This document shows, one piece after another, positions 1 to 43,104 of a stretch of 64,000 bases of DNA. Under the pieces are notes generated by a model. The model had not been told where the DNA came from. It searched no databases and saw only the letters and a program-made list of their open reading frames with translations. The DNA is from Bacillus sp. F19. GTDB taxonomy: Bacteria > Bacillota > Bacilli > Bacillales > Bacillaceae. The stretch lies in contig CP085710.1 of the NCBI GenBank assembly GCA_023823795.1, forward strand, positions 3,622,001-3,686,000, read 5' to 3'. A program made the translations under genes and the position numbers. How positions within the stretch are numbered: the stretch's first letter is position 1; the number at the start of each line of letters is the position of its first letter.

Positions 1-294
1 GTTTTTGATGTAGTAATCAAAAAATTTGATTTCTCTTATACGTACAAAAAGATGGAATTTACAATCTCAATATATGTATATGTATACCCTAATGAGGCGG
101 AATTGAACTATATGATTACTTTGAATGATGGCCGCTTTTCTTCTAAATTTTTTGATTTAATTACCGACGCTCTATCGAAGCAATTAATTTCTATAAGTAA
201 ATACCTCCTAGAGGTTTTGGTGAAATGTTCGGGTGTTGATAAAAACAAATTCAAACTTGGGAAAAAAATTAGTGATTTGGAATCAACAGATTAA
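1..294 (+). CDS. Unknown protein, 5' end cut by the window edge
   Basis: The reading frame is open from base 1 to the TAA at 292-294. The first in-frame ATG (52) has no convincing RBS and the frame continues upstream of it, so this is probably the C-terminal 97 residues of a longer protein. The visible part is rich in Phe, Tyr and Ile at its start and Lys/Asp-rich at its end. No motif is recognised and no function is assigned. It belongs to the AT-rich stretch left of the truncated comGA and is probably mobile-element cargo (inference from position). Confidence 0.55.
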   Translation, partial: VFDVVIKKFDFSYTYKKMEFTISIYVYVYPNEAELNYMITLNDGRFSSKFFDLITDALSKQLISISKYLLEVLVKCSGVDKNKFKLGKKISDLESTD

Positions 295-364: not shown

Positions 365-652
365 ATGATCATACTTCAGGAAATCGGTGCAATTACAGAT
401 AAAGATGATACCCCCATTGGTAGAATAGTTTCAGTTCATGTCTTAATAAATAACACTAAGTATCTGGTTGAAATTAAGAAAGATAGTAGTGGAAAGTGGA
501 TTCTAAATTGCATAAGTCATTTTCAAGAACAAAGTTTGAAATGTCCTTGTAGCAGTAATGATTATATATGTGATTTATTCGATGATAAAGAAGAAGAGTA
601 TATATTTTCACAAGTTTATGATATGAATAAAGTAAGGCTCCAAGGTTATTAA
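365..652 (+). CDS. Small unknown protein (95 aa)
   Basis: A 95-residue ORF with an RBS (AAGGAG) about 7 bases before its ATG, so translation is likely. It contains a short Cys cluster (KCPC near residue 60 and YIC near residue 68) and an acidic run (DDKEEEE-like) near the C-terminus. There is no signal peptide or membrane segment. It is not recognised as a member of a known family. Its position between the partial gene at the left edge and the repeated motifs at 1038-1147 suggests cargo of a mobile element. Confidence 0.6.
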   Translation: MIILQEIGAITDKDDTPIGRIVSVHVLINNTKYLVEIKKDSSGKWILNCISHFQEQSLKCPCSSNDYICDLFDDKEEEYIFSQVYDMNKVRLQGY

Positions 653-819: not shown

Positions 820-996
820 CTAATGGATTAAATAACGATAAAAGAAATAATACATTTCAATAATATCTTTAAATGTTCCCGAGTCTTTGGGATTTTCATA
901 AGAACAGTCAGCGTGAAGAACAACATTTTCCTTGGTTAAATGTACTAAGTCTTGATACTCAAAATGCTTTCTGCATTCTGGACATCTTATTTCCAA
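820..996 (-). CDS. Small Cys-containing protein (58 aa), TTG start
   Basis: The frame could start upstream, but the best start is a TTG at 996-994: GGAGGT lies seven bases before it. This gives 58 residues beginning MEIRCPECRKHFEY. A CPEC pair near residues 5-8 and a later single Cys resemble half of a zinc ribbon, with only one CxxC visible. The C-terminus is Tyr/Phe-rich. No family is recognised. It is the gene closest to the element end, about 40 bases from the innermost repeat, and reads away from comGA. Confidence 0.5.
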   Translation of the reverse strand: MEIRCPECRKHFEYQDLVHLTKENVVLHADCSYENPKDSGTFKDIIEMYYFFYRYLIH

Positions 997-1037
997 TGTG
1001 AGTACCTCCAAATCAATAATTTTACAACCTAACTCTG

Positions 1038-1156
1038 TCTCAAGGTTTATGAAAGCTGGTATTACTATATCAAGGTTTCTAGCGTGTGCCTATCTCATCC
1101 TGTGTGAAACTTTCTCAAGGTATCTGACTGAATCTCAAGATGTGTGACGGATTACA
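1038..1156. mobile_element. Putative end of a Tn7-like or IS21-like element inserted in comGA
   Basis: Five copies of a 15-base motif lie in the same direction, starting at 1038, 1068, 1093, 1113 and 1133. The consensus is TCTCAAGGTNTNTGA, and the last three are spaced exactly 20 bases apart. Just outside them the minus strand reads TGT at 1156-1154, and ComGA similarity stops at this point. Elements with Tn7-, Tn5053- and IS21-type transposases carry several about 20-bp transposase-binding sites per end and terminate in TGT (family knowledge). Seen: the repeats and the coincidence with the break. Inferred: that they are transposase sites. No transposase gene is visible, because the rest lies left of the window. 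Confidence 0.6.
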
Positions 1157-1956
1157 GCTATAAACGTCTGTTCAATTTCTGAAAGACTGACATCAAATTC
1201 AAGCATTCTGTAAATTGCTCCCTTTGCATCTCTAGTATGCATAGTTGATAACACCAAGTGTCCTGTCAGCGCTGCTCTTATGGCAATTTGAGCAGTTTCC
1301 CTATCCCTGATTTCACCCACCATTATGATGTCCGGATCATGCCTTAGAATGGCTTTTAAACCAACAGCATAAGTAATTCCAGCCTTTTCATTTACCTGTA
1401 CTTGCAGGACTTCAGAGCTTTTCGTTTCTACAGGATCTTCAAGGGTAATAATGCTGCGGTTAAAATGTTTTTTCGCATAATGAATCAATGAATATAAGGT
1501 GGTCGTTTTTCCTGAGCCGGTCGGACCGGTAAATACCATCAGACCATGAGAGTGGTTAATAAAGGAGAGAAGTTTATTTGCTGATTGAGGAAACAGAGAG
1601 AGATGCGCAAGTGACGGAATGACTTCGTTTGGAAGTATGCGGATAACAAGACTTTCTTCGAAGATTGTTGGCAGGGAAGACAAGCGAAGCTGAACATCAA
1701 TTGTTTCATTTGAAAGGGCTAAAGCTCCATTTTGCGGCCTTCTTCTTTCTCCGATATCCATTGATGCCAAAAATTTAAAGTGCGCGATAATCCGTTCACA
1801 TACTTCTTTTCTTATGGTGCGCTTTTCAATGAGGTCATCATCTATACGATATTGAATGACCGCATCCCGTTCTCTCGGGACAAAATGAATATCTGATGCA
1901 TTTAATGAACACGCTTCTTCCACAATTCTTTCACTTAGTAGTTCGATTGAGTTCAT
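1135..1956 (-). pseudogene. comGA: ComGA competence pilus ATPase, C-terminally truncated
   Basis: ComGA is the cytoplasmic secretion ATPase that drives assembly of the transformation pseudopilus. The start at 1956 has a strong RBS (AAAGGAGG), and the protein matches ComGA from residue 1. Seen in the 273 residues: Walker A GPTGSGKT at 144-151, Walker B DPDIIMVGE at 207-215 and the His-box HTRDAKGAIYR at 240-250. After EIEQTFIAV the family continues for about 80 more residues with a Cys-rich zinc site. Here it ends after IRHTS at a stop inside the repeated element end. comGB-comGG are absent on this side. The truncated product is probably inactive, so the strain should lack the competence pseudopilus unless another copy exists. 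Confidence 0.85.
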
Positions 1957-1975
1957 GACATCCTCCTTTCGATCA

Positions 1976-2074
1976 GTTATAAACAGCGTACTTGATTTTC
2001 TTTCAAAACGCACATCCTTAAAATGAAGTTTTATCATCCATTTTAACTGCTTTTCCGCCTGAAAATTTCATTAT
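1976..2074 (-). promoter_or_regulatory. comGA promoter with ComK-type box
   Basis: A perfect AAAA-N5-TTTT box lies at 2020-2032. A second box with one mismatch (AAAA-N5-TTAT) lies at 2062-2074. Start-to-start distance is 42 bases, about four helical turns. ComK binds paired boxes of this form. Downstream on the minus strand, TTGAAA (2006-2001) and TATAAC or TTTATA (around 1983-1976) form a plausible SigA promoter just before the comGA RBS. The regulatory region therefore looks intact although the gene is broken. Confidence 0.45.
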
Positions 2075-17020: not shown

Positions 17021-19663
17021 TTATCTTTTATGATAAAGCACTTCATACTCTTGAATAACTTTTTTCACGATATGTTCATAGGCAAAACGGCTCAAAATTT
17101 CTTTATATCCCTGTTGGGCCAGACGGTCTGCCCGCTCTTTATGTTGGAGTGCCTCTAGGATTGCTGATGCCAAAGCTTTTGAATTTCCTCGCTCAAATAG
17201 GAGGCCATTTTCATTGTGCTTGATAATCTCTTTTAACCCGCCGGTATTTGCAGCAATTGTCAGTTTTTTTGCCGCCATGCTCTCCAGTGCAACAATTCCA
17301 AATGGTTCATAATAGCTCGGAATAATAGTCATCTCACAGTGCGTAAGGAGTATATGTATAAGGTCTTCATCTATAAAACCAAGGAATGTTACATTTTCAT
17401 GAACGTTCAATTCTTTCGCTTTTTTTTCATATTCGTTGCGATGCGGTCCATCTCCTGCTATAACAATGTGGATTTTAGGAAAACGCTTCAAAATACCCGG
17501 TATAGCGGATAACAGCACATCAAAACCTTTTTCTGCGACAAGTCTTCCCATCGAGAAAAGATAAGGCTGCCCAGTCAATGATATATCATTGCGCTTTGGT
17601 GAATTTTTATCATACATATTAGTTTTTAAAAGATTTATTCCATTAGGGATTACAGTTAGTTTTTCAGAAGGTATGTGAAATTGCTCCGTGACCTCTTTCA
17701 ACATATAGTCACTGCATATAATCACTTGATCTGCAGCTTGCACCAGCAGGCTTTCTTCCCTTTGTATGTACTTTTGCAGCTGGGTCATGATCCCGCCGTT
17801 CCTTCCCATTTCTGTCGCATGAATCGTGGCAATCAGCGGCACTTTAAACAGCTTTTGTATAGATCTTCCCGCCCCTGCTGTCAGCCAATCATGAACATGC
17901 ACTAAATCATATTTGATGTGACTATTCTTTATTAGAAATTGAACAAATGCACGATTGTAATTTATTACCCACTCAGAGAGCGACTGATGCTTTTGCTGAA
18001 TAGACTGAATCCGGTATATATGAAGGTTTGGAACTGGATTCTCATACAATGGGAGTTCTTCATCTGAAGCTATTGTAAGAAGCGCAACTTCATAATTTTG
18101 TCCAGCAAGTGCATTTGTCAGCTCATCCACATGTCTTCCAAGCCCCCCAACAAGATTTGGGGGGTACTCTGTAGACACCATCAGTATTCTTGGCCTGACA
18201 GCAAACTCTTGTAACTCAGATGTGTTTCTTTTCAATGGAAGAAATGTAAATAAATCTGGTTCCGGGTTATAGTTTTCTAATTCTTCATCCGATCGTTCGC
18301 TCAGTTCGTAATAATGATTTAGGTGCTTTTGAATACGATAATGTCCATAATCAGCAGAAGTGCCGTTTCCAATCATGAATGTCCAGTCGCTGCTTGCGGC
18401 AAGCATCCATTCCTTAATAAGATACCATTTTTTCCTTGTATTCATTTCCCGGGAATTTACAGACTGGCTGTATAACTGCTTCTCGATTAAATGAAAGTGC
18501 TGAAAGTATTCCGCTGTTTTTTCATTCAGCCAAATATCACCGTACCCATTTCTTCCCCATGTAGAAAAACCTAAGCCGACATGGCGGCTGACCTTATTTT
18601 TATTTTTCAGCCAATCAGAAGGGAGAACAAACGGGTTTTCCTTTTTTAACAGCTCAGAAAGAAAGGCCGGACCCTCAAACCACCAATGGCCGAATAACTC
18701 AAAATCAAATGGAAGCACGATAAGCTCAGTTGCAGAACACAGCCTCTCCAAAAAATTATGAGCATCATTTTCAGCTTGTTCAAATGCGATTTCATCATTA
18801 TAAATCGTTTTATCTTCCGTCTTTCCAGTTATGCTCCAAAGTTTCAGTCCGGTATTGATTCTTGTCTTTTTAAGAAATGCAAACTCTTTAATATCTTCCC
18901 AATTTCTTGTCAGCCCGACATCCCGGTAATATTCCCGATATACATGATGTGCAGGGTATCCACTATGCTTATCCCATACAGCATTAGCTTTTTCACTGTT
19001 CCGTTTAAAAATTGTGAGGCCTTTATAGTTCAAAACAGGGCCATTTATTTCAGGAGAATCAGCAAACGTGTATTTAATTCCTTGTTGAATGAGAATCTGC
19101 GCGGTTTGATCATTTATCGCCATTTCTGGAAGCCAAAACCCTTTTGGAGCTGTTCCGAAATGGTGTTCAAACACTTTCATTCCCGTTTCCACTTGCATTT
19201 TCATGCCTTCATCCGTGCAATGAAACGGGAGAATTGCATGCGTTGCACATGTAGTGATAACCTCAATTTTTCTTCTTTTGAATAGATCAATATATCCTTT
19301 TAAAATATTGCCCTTAAATTCTTCAAAGGTTTGGATGATCTTATTGTAATGAGAAAGATAAAAATGTAATACTGATTGCTCCTCATTAGTTGCCCTGCTG
19401 AATTCTGATCTGATTAACAAAATCATCTTGTCCAGGTGACAACGGTATTTTTCCTGGGTCTTCTTATCGGTCAGCATTTCCATAAGAGTAGGGGAAAAAG
19501 AGATTGTTATGGACGGATTGTCCACACCGTTTAAACTCCAAAGCATTGGAATATACGATTCTGAGAGAGCTTCAAAAAGCCAGAGCTGTTCATATTCTGT
19601 ATTTGTATAGTCAGTTATGAAAGGCAAGTGGGCATGAAGGATGATCATGCTGTTTTTCACCAT
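17021..19663 (-). CDS. GH57 branching-enzyme-like domain fused to GT4 glycosyltransferase
   Basis: 880 residues in two parts. Residues 1 to about 480 are a GH57/DUF1957 domain: HAHLPF at 10-15, GFWLPE with candidate nucleophile Glu180, [10 protein letters not shown] with candidate acid/base Asp320, and SSDWTFMI near 424-431. GH57 enzymes of this branch make alpha-1,6 branches in glucans. Residues about 490-880 are a GT4 GT-B transferase: [19 protein letters not shown], then [17 protein letters not shown] and [14 protein letters not shown] glucan synthase and branching enzyme in one chain is the natural reading (inference). No signal peptide: cytoplasmic. B. subtilis has, as I recall, only a stand-alone GT (YqgM) at this place. 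Confidence 0.85.
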
Positions 19664-39158: not shown

Positions 39159-40040
39159 TTAATGAATCGCTGACTTGAAATTTGTCCCTTTTGTTTCTTG
39201 TGTATTCATTATTGTAATAAATGCATTTGTATCGATTTCATGAACAATTGATTTTAGCTTTGTCACTTCGAGTCTTGTGACAACTACATAGATGACTTCC
39301 TTTTCGTCATCTGTATAGCCGCCTTTGCCTTTTAATTTTGTGGTTCCGCGCCCAAGCCTTTGAAGGATGGCATCAGATACATCTTCATAATAGTCAGAAA
39401 CAATGATCACTGCCTTTGTTTCGTCTAATCCTTGAATGACAGTATCAATCGTTTTAAATGCTATATAGTAAGCCATCACCGAATACATAGCTTGCTCTGC
39501 CCCAAATACAAATGCTGCCCAGGCAAAGATGAAAATGTTAATAAACATGACAAATTCCCCTACTGAAAACGGCAGTTTTTTTGTAAGCAATATGCCTAAA
39601 ATTTCTGTTCCGTCCATTGAACCGCCGTTTCGTATGACCAGCCCTACACCCACACCAAGGATCAGTCCTCCGAAAACAGTTGCTAAAATCGGCTCTGCCG
39701 TGAACGGTTCAACATGGTGCAGCATGCTTTCTATGATAGCCAGAGAGACTATACCAAAAATCGACGATATCATAAATGTTTTACCTATTTGTTTATAGCC
39801 ATAATACATAAACGGCAAATTTAAAATGACGACCAGTGTTCCAAAATTGATGAATGACAGACTGTCAGGTGTGATATGGTCGACAATCAGCGATATGCCG
39901 ATTATTCCCCCATCAATAATCTGATTGGGAATAAGGAAGAGTTCAATTGAGACAGCTGCAAACGCTGCACCGATGATAATCAAAATCAGTCTTGTTAATA
40001 ATCGTCCTGTACTTTCTTTTTTATGCTGTTTTTTTGTCAT
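39159..40040 (-). CDS. yqfU: YitT-family membrane protein YqfU
   Basis: 293 residues: five membrane segments in the first 200 residues (DUF161/YitT type, with [13 protein letters not shown]), then a soluble DUF2179 domain ([23 protein letters not shown]). The family is linked to unknown transport or sensing roles. RBS GGGGAA lies before the ATG. Confidence 0.82.
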
Positions 40041-40060
40041 TTAAATGATTCCCCTCTCAT

Positions 40061-40165
40061 AAAGAAAAGCGCAGGCGCCTTGTTCAGCTCCGAATTGCGG
40101 ATCCGTTCTGACCGAGGAGTTTACGCGCAGGAGCTAAACATCAATGCGCGAAATTTTATACTTTT
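40061..40165. repeat. Dispersed intergenic repeat, copy B
   Basis: Starts GAAAAGCGCAGGCGCCTT at 40064, then CAGCTCCG and GATCCGTTCTGACCGAGG. The first 18 bases differ from copy A (6151) at one position. It sits between yqfU and yqfT and is not coding. Confidence 0.6.
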
Positions 40166-40280
40166 TTATCATTTAAGAATAGTGCAGAAAGCTAAAAAAT
40201 TTTATCCTATTCGATTACTAAAAAAATAGGCACTTTTCCTAAATCTTCACCATACATTGAATGGTGAGGGAGGTATGTAC

Positions 40281-40535
40281 GTGATTTTATTTCAAAAGAT
40301 CGTTAACCAGAAACTAAATTCATTGGACACAGATGGATTGCTTCAGCTTGCTAAACAGAACAGCCTTGCAATCAACAGAGCTCAGGCTCAGGAAATCGTG
40401 AAAATCATCCGCGGCAGAAACATTAATATCTTTAATGATTCAGAGCGCATCAGCCTATTAAAGAAGGTAGCTGCGATTACTTCGCCTGCCACTGCACAGC
40501 AAATGAACCAATTGTTTCAGCAGTTTATAGGCTAA
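40281..40535 (+). CDS. yqfT: DUF2624 protein YqfT
   Basis: 84 residues from a GTG at 40281 with GGGAGG seven bases upstream; the frame extends to 40257, but that start has no RBS. An all-helical small protein (LDTDGLLQLAKQNSLAINRAQAQEIVKIIRG). Synteny next to nfo matches YqfT. Function unknown. Confidence 0.75.
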   Translation: MILFQKIVNQKLNSLDTDGLLQLAKQNSLAINRAQAQEIVKIIRGRNINIFNDSERISLLKKVAAITSPATAQQMNQLFQQFIG

Positions 40536-40573
40536 AAAGCTGTCGATTTTCTCCGACAGCTTTCTTTTTTATG
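40533..40573. terminator. Terminator between yqfT and nfo
   Basis: AAAGCTGTCG / CGACAGCTTT hairpin with A- and T-runs between convergent genes. Confidence 0.88.
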
Positions 40574-41465
40574 CCTGATTTCGGATGCGTTCCAGCAGAT
40601 CAGAATTGAATTCTTTCCCCCGCAGCATCTCAATTTCAAAACGGTATGGCGGTTTTTTATCTTTCTTATCTTCACCTACATAAGGAGTTTCAAGAATTTT
40701 AGGCACATCTGCAAGCTGCGGATGATGAACGATATCATTCAATGCCTTAAATCCGATATGGCCAAATCCGATATTCTCATGACGGTCTTTCCGGGCTCCA
40801 GAAATATTTTTGCTGTCATTTATATGAAGCACCTTCAATCGATCCAGACCGATAATGGAATCAAATTGCTGCAGAACTCCATCAAAATCATTGATGATAT
40901 CATATCCTGCATCATGTGTATGGCACGTATCAAAGCATACTGAAAGATGCTCATTATGCGTGACACCCTCAATGATCTGTGCGAGTTCTTCAAATGAACG
41001 GCCGCACTCAGAGCCTTTTCCGGCCATTGTCTCAAGAGCGATTTGAACATTTTCTTCTCTATCAAGAACTTCATTGAGTCCTTCGATGATTTTTTTAATG
41101 CCTGCTTCTGATCCTGCTCCAACATGAGCCCCTGGATGTAGCACAATTTGTTTTGCTCCAAGAGCGTGCGACCGGTCAATTTCAGATCGCAAAAATTGCA
41201 CGCCAAGTTCAAAGGTTGCCGGATTTGTTGTATTGCCGATATTGATGATATATGGTGCATGAACAACTATATCAATCATCCCATTTTCCCTCATATGGGC
41301 CTGTCCTGCTTCAATATTCAGCTCTTCAATCTTTTTACGTCTAGTATTCTGAGGTGCTCCTGTATAGATCATGAACGTATTCGCACCGTAAGATACTGCT
41401 TCCTCACTTGCAGCCAGCAGCATTTTTTTTCCGCTCATTGATACATGTGATCCTATTTTCAGCAT
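40569..41465 (-). CDS. nfo: Endonuclease IV (AP endonuclease)
   Basis: 298 residues, class II apurinic endonuclease with a TIM-barrel and three zinc ions. Seen: GSHVSMSG at the start, LHPGAHVG near 108, [27 protein letters not shown] and GFGHIG, which carry the metal ligands in the family order. Repairs abasic sites, notably in spores. Lies 12 bases downstream of cshB and is probably co-transcribed. Confidence 0.95.
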
Positions 41466-41476
41466 CTATTCTCCTC

Positions 41477-42793
41477 CTACTTGCGCTTTTGATTCAATCT
41501 TCTTTGACGTTTTTTAATTTCATCCATTTCTCTCGTCAATTTCTTTTTGTATCCAGGTTTTACACCTTTTGGCTTTCTAACCTTGCTTTTCGCCATTTGG
41601 TCAACGCCATCTGAAGGTCTTACGCGTTTTTGTCTGCGTTTGCGGTCCTCAACTTTTTTCCACTCGCCGTCAACGAGATCCTGGTTTTCAAATTCTATCC
41701 CTAATTTTTCGAGGGTGATTAACGCATCTTCATTTTCCGGCTCATAGATCGTCGCTGCAATACCTGAGTAGTCTGCACGTCCCGTACGTCCAACACGGTG
41801 AATGTAAAAATCGAGATCACTTGGAAGCTCAAAATTGATGACATGGCTTACACCGTCAATATCAATGCCTCTTGAAGCCAAATCTGTCGCAACGACATAC
41901 TGATAATCAAGATCATTAATTTGCTTCATCATTTTTTTGCGGTCTCTTGGTGATAAATCGCCGTGAATACGTCCAACTTTGAGGCCTTTTGCAATCAGCC
42001 CGTCCGCTACCTCATCCGCTTTTTTCTTTGTGTTTGTAAACACAATAGCTAAATAAGGGTTGTAGTTTTTCAGCATTTCAAATAAAAGATTTGTTTTATT
42101 ACGGTGGCGCAGCGGCACCAGCACGTGCTTAATTTTCTTGGCAGTTGCCTGCTTTGGTGCAACGTGAGTAAATTTAGGGTTTTCCATATATTTTTTCAGG
42201 AAAGGTTTTAATTTCTCGGGAATAGTTGCAGAAAAAACAAGGATTTGCAGTTTTTCAGGCATATTGCCGCCAATTTTATCAACATCTTCAATGAATCCCA
42301 TATCAAGCATAAGATCTGCTTCATCAACAACTAATGCTTTTGCCTGATGAACGAAAAGAGCTTTTTCGGCAATTAAATCCTTAATTCTGCCCGGCGTGCC
42401 GATGACAAGCTGAGGCTGGCTTTTCAGTTTATCAATTGTACGCTGCTTGTCTGTTCCGCCAATAAAACATTTAGCAGAAATCGTTTCATTTTCCGGTGCA
42501 AATTTAAGAACATGCAGAGCATCCTGGTAGATTTGATTGGCTAGTTCTCTTGTAGGGGCAGTAATAACAACTTGTACGTTTTCATTTGAGGGATCAATCC
42601 TTTGAATAAGAGGCAATAAATAAGCATGCGTTTTCCCTGTGCCTGTCTGTGATTGTCCTATAGCTGTTTCCCCTTTTAATAGTGAAGGGAATAAGCGAGC
42701 TTGTATTTCAGTCGGTTCATAAAAACCCAGCGCTTTGACAGCATCTATAATAAAAGGCTTAAATGGAAACTGATTGAACTTTGTTTGTTCCAT
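41477..42793 (-). CDS. cshB: DEAD-box RNA helicase CshB
   Basis: 438 residues from the ATG at 42793 (AAGGAG upstream), matching CshB length. Motifs in order: Q-motif EIQARLFPSL, I GQSQTGTGKT, Ia PTRELA, II VDEADLML, III SATIP, IV IVFTNTKKKADE and VI HRVGRTGR. The basic C-terminal tail (KRRQKRVRPSDGVDQ) binds RNA in such helicases. Implicated in cold-shock RNA remodelling and ribosome biogenesis. Confidence 0.94.
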   Translation of the reverse strand: MEQTKFNQFPFKPFIIDAVKALGFYEPTEIQARLFPSLLKGETAIGQSQTGTGKTHAYLLPLIQRIDPSNENVQVVITAPTRELANQIYQDALHVLKFAPENETISAKCFIGGTDKQRTIDKLKSQPQLVIGTPGRIKDLIAEKALFVHQAKALVVDEADLMLDMGFIEDVDKIGGNMPEKLQILVFSATIPEKLKPFLKKYMENPKFTHVAPKQATAKKIKHVLVPLRHRNKTNLLFEMLKNYNPYLAIVFTNTKKKADEVADGLIAKGLKVGRIHGDLSPRDRKKMMKQINDLDYQYVVATDLASRGIDIDGVSHVINFELPSDLDFYIHRVGRTGRADYSGIAATIYEPENEDALITLEKLGIEFENQDLVDGEWKKVEDRKRRQKRVRPSDGVDQMAKSKVRKPKGVKPGYKKKLTREMDEIKKRQRRLNQKRK

Positions 42794-43104
42794 GTTCATC
42801 ATCTCCTTGATGAGTAAATTAATAAAAGGCTCCATTTTAAGTTGTTGCTGTTTTCATTTATACATCTTAATTAGAAAAGAGCACGGTTTCCTAATAAAAG
42901 GATGCGCGAATTCATCTTTTTATGAAGGGCAGCAATTCTTGCGATAACAGCCAAAAAATAAGACGGTTGTCCATCAAAACATTATATACGATTTGAGAGA
43001 AAAACTCCAATCGATTCCGCCTATTCTTAAAACCATGCAAACCTTTCAGCTGCTTCTGCATATTGTGTAGGTAGTATACACGTTAGTTTAAAAGGAGGAT
43101 CATC
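42794..43104. other. Divergent intergenic region cshB / yqfQ
   Basis: 311 bases. Near its right end AC then CATATTGTG with a 16-base spacer (CATA at 43059-43062) resembles a SigK promoter with one mismatch, about 40 bases before yqfQ; this fits a spore-related role but is weak. No ORF or RNA gene is seen in the rest. Confidence 0.3.

Follow-up and report, generated by a model that had tools for sequence, protein, structure and literature searches.

A Tn7-like transposon family with no TnsA found recurs in the competence gene comGA of Bacillales

The Escherichia coli transposon Tn7 encodes TnsB, TnsC and TnsD, produces a 5-bp target duplication and has unequal ends, one with dense and one with spaced sites, which enter the target site in one orientation. 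The element analyzed here resembles Tn7 in its TnsB, TnsC and TnsD-like TniQ proteins, its 5-bp duplication, its unequal ends and its single orientation. It differs in that no TnsA was found, in its gene order and target, and in that the transposition genes are located at the spaced-site end. Tn7-like elements are described as leading a two-pathway life (PMC11406308), and branches lacking tnsA are reported to carry resolvases typically, with host recombination resolving where none is present (PMC8649781). The closest solved TnsB and TnsC proteins are those of type I-F3 CASTs (Tn6677, PseCAST), from which the element is set apart by the lack of Cas families among 33 proteins scanned, the lack of a found TnsA and its location at comGA. 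We consider it likely (probability of about 0.85) that it belongs to a family of Tn7-like transposons without TnsA in which a TnsD-like TniQ directs insertion to comGA, thereby shutting down transformation.

The window is a stretch of 64,000 nt from Bacillus sp. F19 (contig CP085710.1), and positions without prefix refer to it. An earlier note had read five same-direction motif copies near its left edge as the end of a mobile element. A pattern match in the window confirmed these copies at 1038, 1068, 1093, 1113 and 1133, all on the plus strand, with exact copies at 1038 and 1113, one mismatch at 1133 and three mismatches each at 1068 and 1093. Taken one by one, weak motif matches are insignificant (31 in the window versus 25.8 expected, with at least 31 in 18 of 100 shuffles). 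The cluster, with five plus-strand matches in 120 nt, is different: 200 windows simulated by a first-order Markov model gave at most two. Read inward on the minus strand, the copies form an array of putative TnsB-type binding sites with the consensus TTCANNAANNNTGAGA: site 1 (1133-1148, 9-24 nt from the tip, two mismatches), site 2 (1113-1128, 29 nt, two mismatches), site 3 (1093-1108, 49 nt, one mismatch) and site 4 (1038-1053, 104 nt, no mismatch). The copy at 1068-1083 (minus strand, 74 nt from the tip) is degenerate, having three mismatches to the motif of the earlier note and no match to the TTCANNAANNNTGAGA pattern at up to three mismatches. The other four copies match the spacing conserved in related elements (104, 49, 29 and 9 bases from the tip), and of the two ends of the element this is the dense one.

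The terminus proposed at 1156 also held, since an inverted tip, GGATTACA, occupies 1149-1156 (minus strand; TGTAATCC when read inward) and ends exactly there. It is followed by GCTAT at 1157-1161, where a short target duplication had been predicted, and by the 5' part of comGA (1162-2037, minus strand, putative start), which gives a T2SSE match. The open frame of comGA (ORF 1135-2037) continues six codons into the element up to a stop at 1137-1135. On the element side, a small cargo ORF of 63 aa adjoins the terminus (820-1011, minus strand; CxxC by eye, no Pfam match); the window also holds a cargo ORF of 95 aa (365-652, plus strand) and the 3' end of a cargo ORF entering from the left (1-294, plus strand), both without NCBIfam match. 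A tRNA-Gln (ttg) gene is located upstream of comGA at 2152-2225, which accounts for three other matches within query 2147-2224.

The left part of the window, suspected to be the edge of a larger island, turned out to be the last 1,156 bp (1-1156) of a complete element of 60,483 bp (G000:C1:3562674-3623156), with the remainder located left of the window. A genome-wide motif search at up to one mismatch yielded 12 matches versus eight with a reversed control pattern, including two minus-strand matches 54 bp apart (G000:C1:3562683 and 3562737). They mark the second, inverted end: TGTAATCC starts at G000:C1:3562674 (partner tip 3562674-3562681), directly preceded by the second copy of GCTAT (L017:10669-10673), and mirrors the near terminus. 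Beyond this end we found the missing comGA 3' end and what the earlier note had expected as comGB-GG, namely a T2SSF protein (comGB), two ORFs with pilin N-methylation motifs, ComGF and ComGG, with one intervening ORF without family match. Joining both flanks in silico minus one GCTAT restored a single uninterrupted ComGA frame, and the T2SSE family has one match in this genome, at the truncated comGA. The G+C content of the element is 34.0%, versus 36.8 and 38.9% in the flanks. Paired ends with 8-bp inverted tips and a 5-bp duplication, as read from the genome sequence, thus show an element inserted in comGA with both ends complete.

The cargo includes the defence systems Hachiman (HamA/HamB) and Gabija (GajA/GajB) and a type IV (Mrr-type) restriction enzyme, along with an Abi_C protein, an XPB-like helicase, SUKH proteins and a PIN protein. 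Sporulation proteins are also carried, SpoIID and SpoIIP, at L018:15932-16909 and L005:252-1460. DNA repeats are present within the cargo at element coordinates 28723/50183 (154 bp, 91%) and 39685-43088 (several, 57-89 bp).

A transposase of the TnsB/TniA/IstA type with an AAA+ partner had been predicted to the left, and a TnsB-type transposase with a TnsC/TniB partner was found there. From the left end inward, the element encodes TniQ-A (600 aa), TnsC/TniB (324 aa), TnsB (666 aa), a small HTH protein on the opposite strand and TniQ-B (555 aa). In this element the matching N-terminal stretch of TniQ-B is open, without an obvious start codon, so that its start is uncertain. In TnsB, Mu-transpos_C scores above and rve slightly below the Pfam cut-off, and the catalytic residues D268, D353 and E389 are aligned in six of six intact elements. 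Its nearest solved relatives come from type I-F3 CASTs (TnsB proteins, 3e-104 to 1e-98 with profile A3, in which G083 is represented by a catalytically altered TnsB paralogue, its main TnsB being left out). TnsC matches TniB (8e-24, Pfam), and its nearest solved relative is the TnsC of Tn6677 (VchTnsC, 4e-36). Both TniQ proteins exceed the Pfam cut-off; the TniQ-A profile hits TniQ and TnsD chains of solved structures, the TniQ domain being common to several CASTs.

A TnsB/TniA-type DDE transposase, a TnsC/TniB AAA+ protein, TniQ/TnsD proteins and inverted end arrays together make the element Tn7-like, and 5-bp duplications with TGT...ACA tips occur in this element and in five relatives. Of the earlier label 'Tn7-like or IS21-like', the first half stands with TnsB, TnsC and two TniQ proteins. 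The second half falls: the IS21 transposase model scored 22.7 bits versus a cut-off of 160, TniB and TniQ are present instead, and no IstA/IstB pair was found. The TnsA of Tn7 proper and the CRISPR-Cas effector of a CAST were not found either; a Pfam scan of 33 element proteins, covering the larger ORFs, detected no TnsA, no serine or tyrosine resolvase and no Cas family. TnsA_N (PF08722, the N-terminal family of TnsA only) was detected in none of six element-bearing genomes versus 12 of 38 other genomes, and this probe is therefore functional within the order.

Relatives of TniQ-A are rare, with two of 81 genomes of the family at an E-value of 1e-15 and three of 397 genomes drawn from the order at 1e-30 (query included in both), while in the genus only the query genome was recovered (one of eight). 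When genome contigs were searched, the TniQ-A alignment retrieved five loci and the single protein no relatives. IMG/VR yielded none either. Among plasmids, TniQ-A matched four remote records (best 23.6% identity over 65% of the query) and TnsB 4,991 records, all below 60% identity. Matching 5-bp duplications delimit elements of 32,093 bp in Bacillus tianshenii DSM 25879 (G319), 32,340 bp in Bacillus suaedaesalsae RD4P76 (G083), 42,985 bp in Metabacillus lacus KCTC 33946 (G079) and 29,543 bp (element 1) in Cytobacillus oceanisediminis 15_TX (G462), while Bacillus sp. FJAT-29814 (G463) contains a degenerate remnant. Element 2 of G462 starts on contig C10, 14 bp past element 1, and has its other end on contig C3; CCGAG is present at both outer sides, and it probably represents a single element split over two contigs. 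G462 (L055-L057, L072-L073) contains two different Tn7-like elements in tandem within one comGA, 14 bp apart.

The ends of these elements share their architecture. With up to two mismatches, TTCANNAANNNTGAGA matches 61 times inward versus nine times outward in 13 ends of 260 nt, against a background from element interiors of 0.09 expected per end and strand; the consensus was derived from some of these 13 ends, so that the count is non-independent and the fixed spacing of the sites is the stronger evidence. Dense ends (n=7) have sites at about 9, 29 and 49 nt from the tip and, in six of seven, at about 104 nt, with one site in G462 element 2 having three mismatches. Spaced ends (n=6) have sites at about 9, 64, 86 and 116 nt, some also at 158 nt; several have three mismatches, site 116 is lacking in G083 and site 86 in G462 element 2.

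TniQ-A proteins of the elements inserted in comGA share 27-37% identity. Residues 376-450, HTH-like by eye, have a conservation of 0.34-0.44 versus a protein mean of 0.31, and the N-terminal TniQ domain reaches 0.51 (G079 was left out as a near-duplicate); for residues 376-450 this is suggestive only. Five of the six intact elements encode a RecJ-type exonuclease (DHH, DHHA1, RecJ_OB) close to tniQ-B (L027:8048-9733, L028:8754-10415, L022:8013-9578, L055:17754-19319 and L073:17236-18903); none was found in the element of Bacillus sp. F19. Second TnsB-like proteins occur in G083 (L028:13709-14965, without two DDE residues) and in G462 element 2 (L073:13243-14925, without one), the latter fused to a TnsC-like ATPase.

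The earlier note had named competence as the target, and the preference is stronger than it could have known, since related elements recur in comGA of other genera. Five of the six intact elements, in four of five genomes (Bacillus sp. F19, G083, G319 and both elements of G462), are located in comGA, and T2SSF (comGB) adjoins the comGA 3' piece in all four genomes in which this family interrupts the gene. The insertion points of G083, G319 and G462 element 2, from three host genera, lie within 1 bp of each other at the codons R-L-L/A-E. G462 element 1 is inserted 9 bp upstream, which places four insertions within 10 bp, and the element of Bacillus sp. F19 41 bp downstream of this common site. 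The orientation is identical in all five cases, with the dense end toward the 5' part and the spaced end toward the 3' part. These five insertions in four genomes show comGA to be a preferred, orientation-specific attachment site of the family in Bacillales. Across the order, comGA matches were obtained in 370 of 397 genomes; among the 150 matches listed, three have short frames (Bacillus sp. F19, 310 aa; G083, 269 aa; G241, 278 aa) and the other 147 frames of at least 343 aa, the three-piece comGA of G319 scoring below the cut-off. The four other genomes drawn from the same genus all have an uninterrupted comGA of 362 aa. As to the side of the insertion on which comGA would be recognized, the flank at the dense end is slightly more conserved among four hosts (0.66-0.71 identity) than the other (0.58-0.63), and the double insertion of G462 fits either order.

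The sixth intact element, that of G079, is located inside a mocR-like gene (aminotransferase part by Pfam, regulator part by eye), and its host has an uninterrupted comGA of 380 aa. It shares a transposition module of 9,241 bp at 95.7% DNA identity with G462 element 1, with no further DNA match apart from ends and short stretches, while the ComGA proteins of both hosts are 63% identical. The near-identical module, divergent ComGA and differing cargo therefore indicate a fairly recent transfer of this module from one genus to another and an exchange of its cargo. Its presence in a mocR-like gene means that comGA is not the sole target, so that targeting is not absolute or a second pathway exists. 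No motif common to the mocR-like and comGA flanks emerged (615 and 150 of 1000 shuffles were as good). Near-identical modules at both sites suggest either a second pathway, with two TniQ proteins encoded by each element, or occasional off-target events; two TniQ proteins per element would fit the two-pathway life outlined for Tn7-like elements (PMC11406308).

Serine-recombinase elements unrelated to the Tn7-like family also break comGA in two genomes. The comGA of G319 is broken a second time at the Walker A codons (L032:16776-18263 and 18302-18742); the inserted element measures about 11 kb and encodes, at the break, a serine recombinase of 495 aa. In G241 (L075:1-19076), from another genus, the break in comGA is at another position and is due to a prophage-like region with a terminase and, at the break, a serine recombinase of 486 aa.

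Several other explanations should be weighed against a family homing to comGA. Choice of target could be loose, with comGA hits seen since hosts tolerate the loss of competence and no TniQ seeking the gene. The mocR-like location of one of six intact elements, the degenerate G463 element, which lies outside an uninterrupted comGA (367 aa) just behind an ABC-2 membrane protein gene, and the breaks by serine-recombinase elements agree with this idea. Tolerated random insertions should, however, be spread across the gene and across many other dispensable genes, whereas three insertions from three genera fall within 1 bp, a fourth 9 bp away, and five of five share one orientation, which makes loose targeting distinctly improbable. 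We also doubt strongly its assignment to the Tn5053 family proper (TniA, TniB, TniQ and a resolvase, with plasmid res sites as targets). The TniB and TniQ matches and the lack of a found TnsA point that way, but neither TniR nor any other serine or tyrosine resolvase was detected among the 33 proteins scanned with Pfam, both TniQ proteins are long, the target is a chromosomal comGA instead of a plasmid resolution site, and TnsB is nearest to I-F3 CAST TnsB among solved relatives, a comparison made without Tn5053 TniA.

The motifs might in principle be an ordinary promoter or operator array beside a merely truncated comGA, as direct repeats spaced by about 20 bp resemble regulator sites. The inverted sites at the other comGA fragment, the matching tips, the duplication and the transposase genes leave this idea virtually no probability, and the paired ends, duplication and transposase genes refute it. 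Neither comGB-GG directly adjoining without a second inverted array nor the same motifs as a promoter or operator array in relatives with intact comGA was encountered. A variant of the homing family, which we regard as unlikely, is a TnsA-less and resolvase-less branch in which element-borne factors (the RecJ-type 5' exonuclease and the second, non-catalytic TnsB-like protein) replace TnsA. If true, Tn7-like elements would have a third means of handling the joined intermediate, in addition to cutting by TnsA and to resolvases.

Under the preferred reading, a TnsA-less family guided to comGA by TniQ, the arrays of sites at the two ends would be bound by the TnsB homologue, which would join these ends to the target with 5-bp staggered cuts, while a TnsD-like TniQ bound at the target would recruit the TnsC homologue. 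One TniQ, most likely TniQ-A, may recognize the conserved coding stretch of comGA, and recurrence and orientation of the insertions support such guidance. As no TnsA was detected in six element-bearing genomes, movement is probably not classical Tn7 cut-and-paste but may be replicative or otherwise TnsA-independent. The insertion cuts the pilus ATPase gene and parts comGB-comGG from the upstream operon, and the host should therefore lose transformation, which would shield the element and its phage-defence cargo from removal by recombination.

A search of the open-licence literature found no report of a Tn7-like element in comGA; insertions of this kind may be contained in the data tables of Benler 2021 and Faure 2023. 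Prophages in comK, comYC and comFA (PMC4774983) and in comGA of Staphylococcus pseudintermedius (PMC8297860) likewise disrupt competence genes, in the latter case the very same gene, whereas the present element is a DDE transposon. That comGA is struck by Tn7-like elements as well as by a serine-recombinase element and by a prophage-like region is as predicted by an intragenomic conflict between transformation and mobile DNA (PMC4774983). Since its ends are defined and comGA offers a candidate attachment site, this TnsB/TnsC/TniQ system of Bacillales makes target recognition testable in laboratory strains. Tn6022/AbaR-type elements in comM (PMC10293859, PMC11406308) are likewise Tn7-like and home into a transformation-aiding gene, which they inactivate; this is also an ATPase gene, and the insertion falls within a conserved part of its coding sequence. 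Tn6022 encodes TnsA, TnsE and TnsF and targets comM, while the present element, from Bacillales, has no TnsA found, encodes two long TniQ proteins and is located in comGA. What Tn6022 is to comM, this family would be to comGA in Gram-positive bacteria: DDE transposons, as opposed to prophages, that have interrupted the DNA-uptake operon of bacilli repeatedly and import phage defence.
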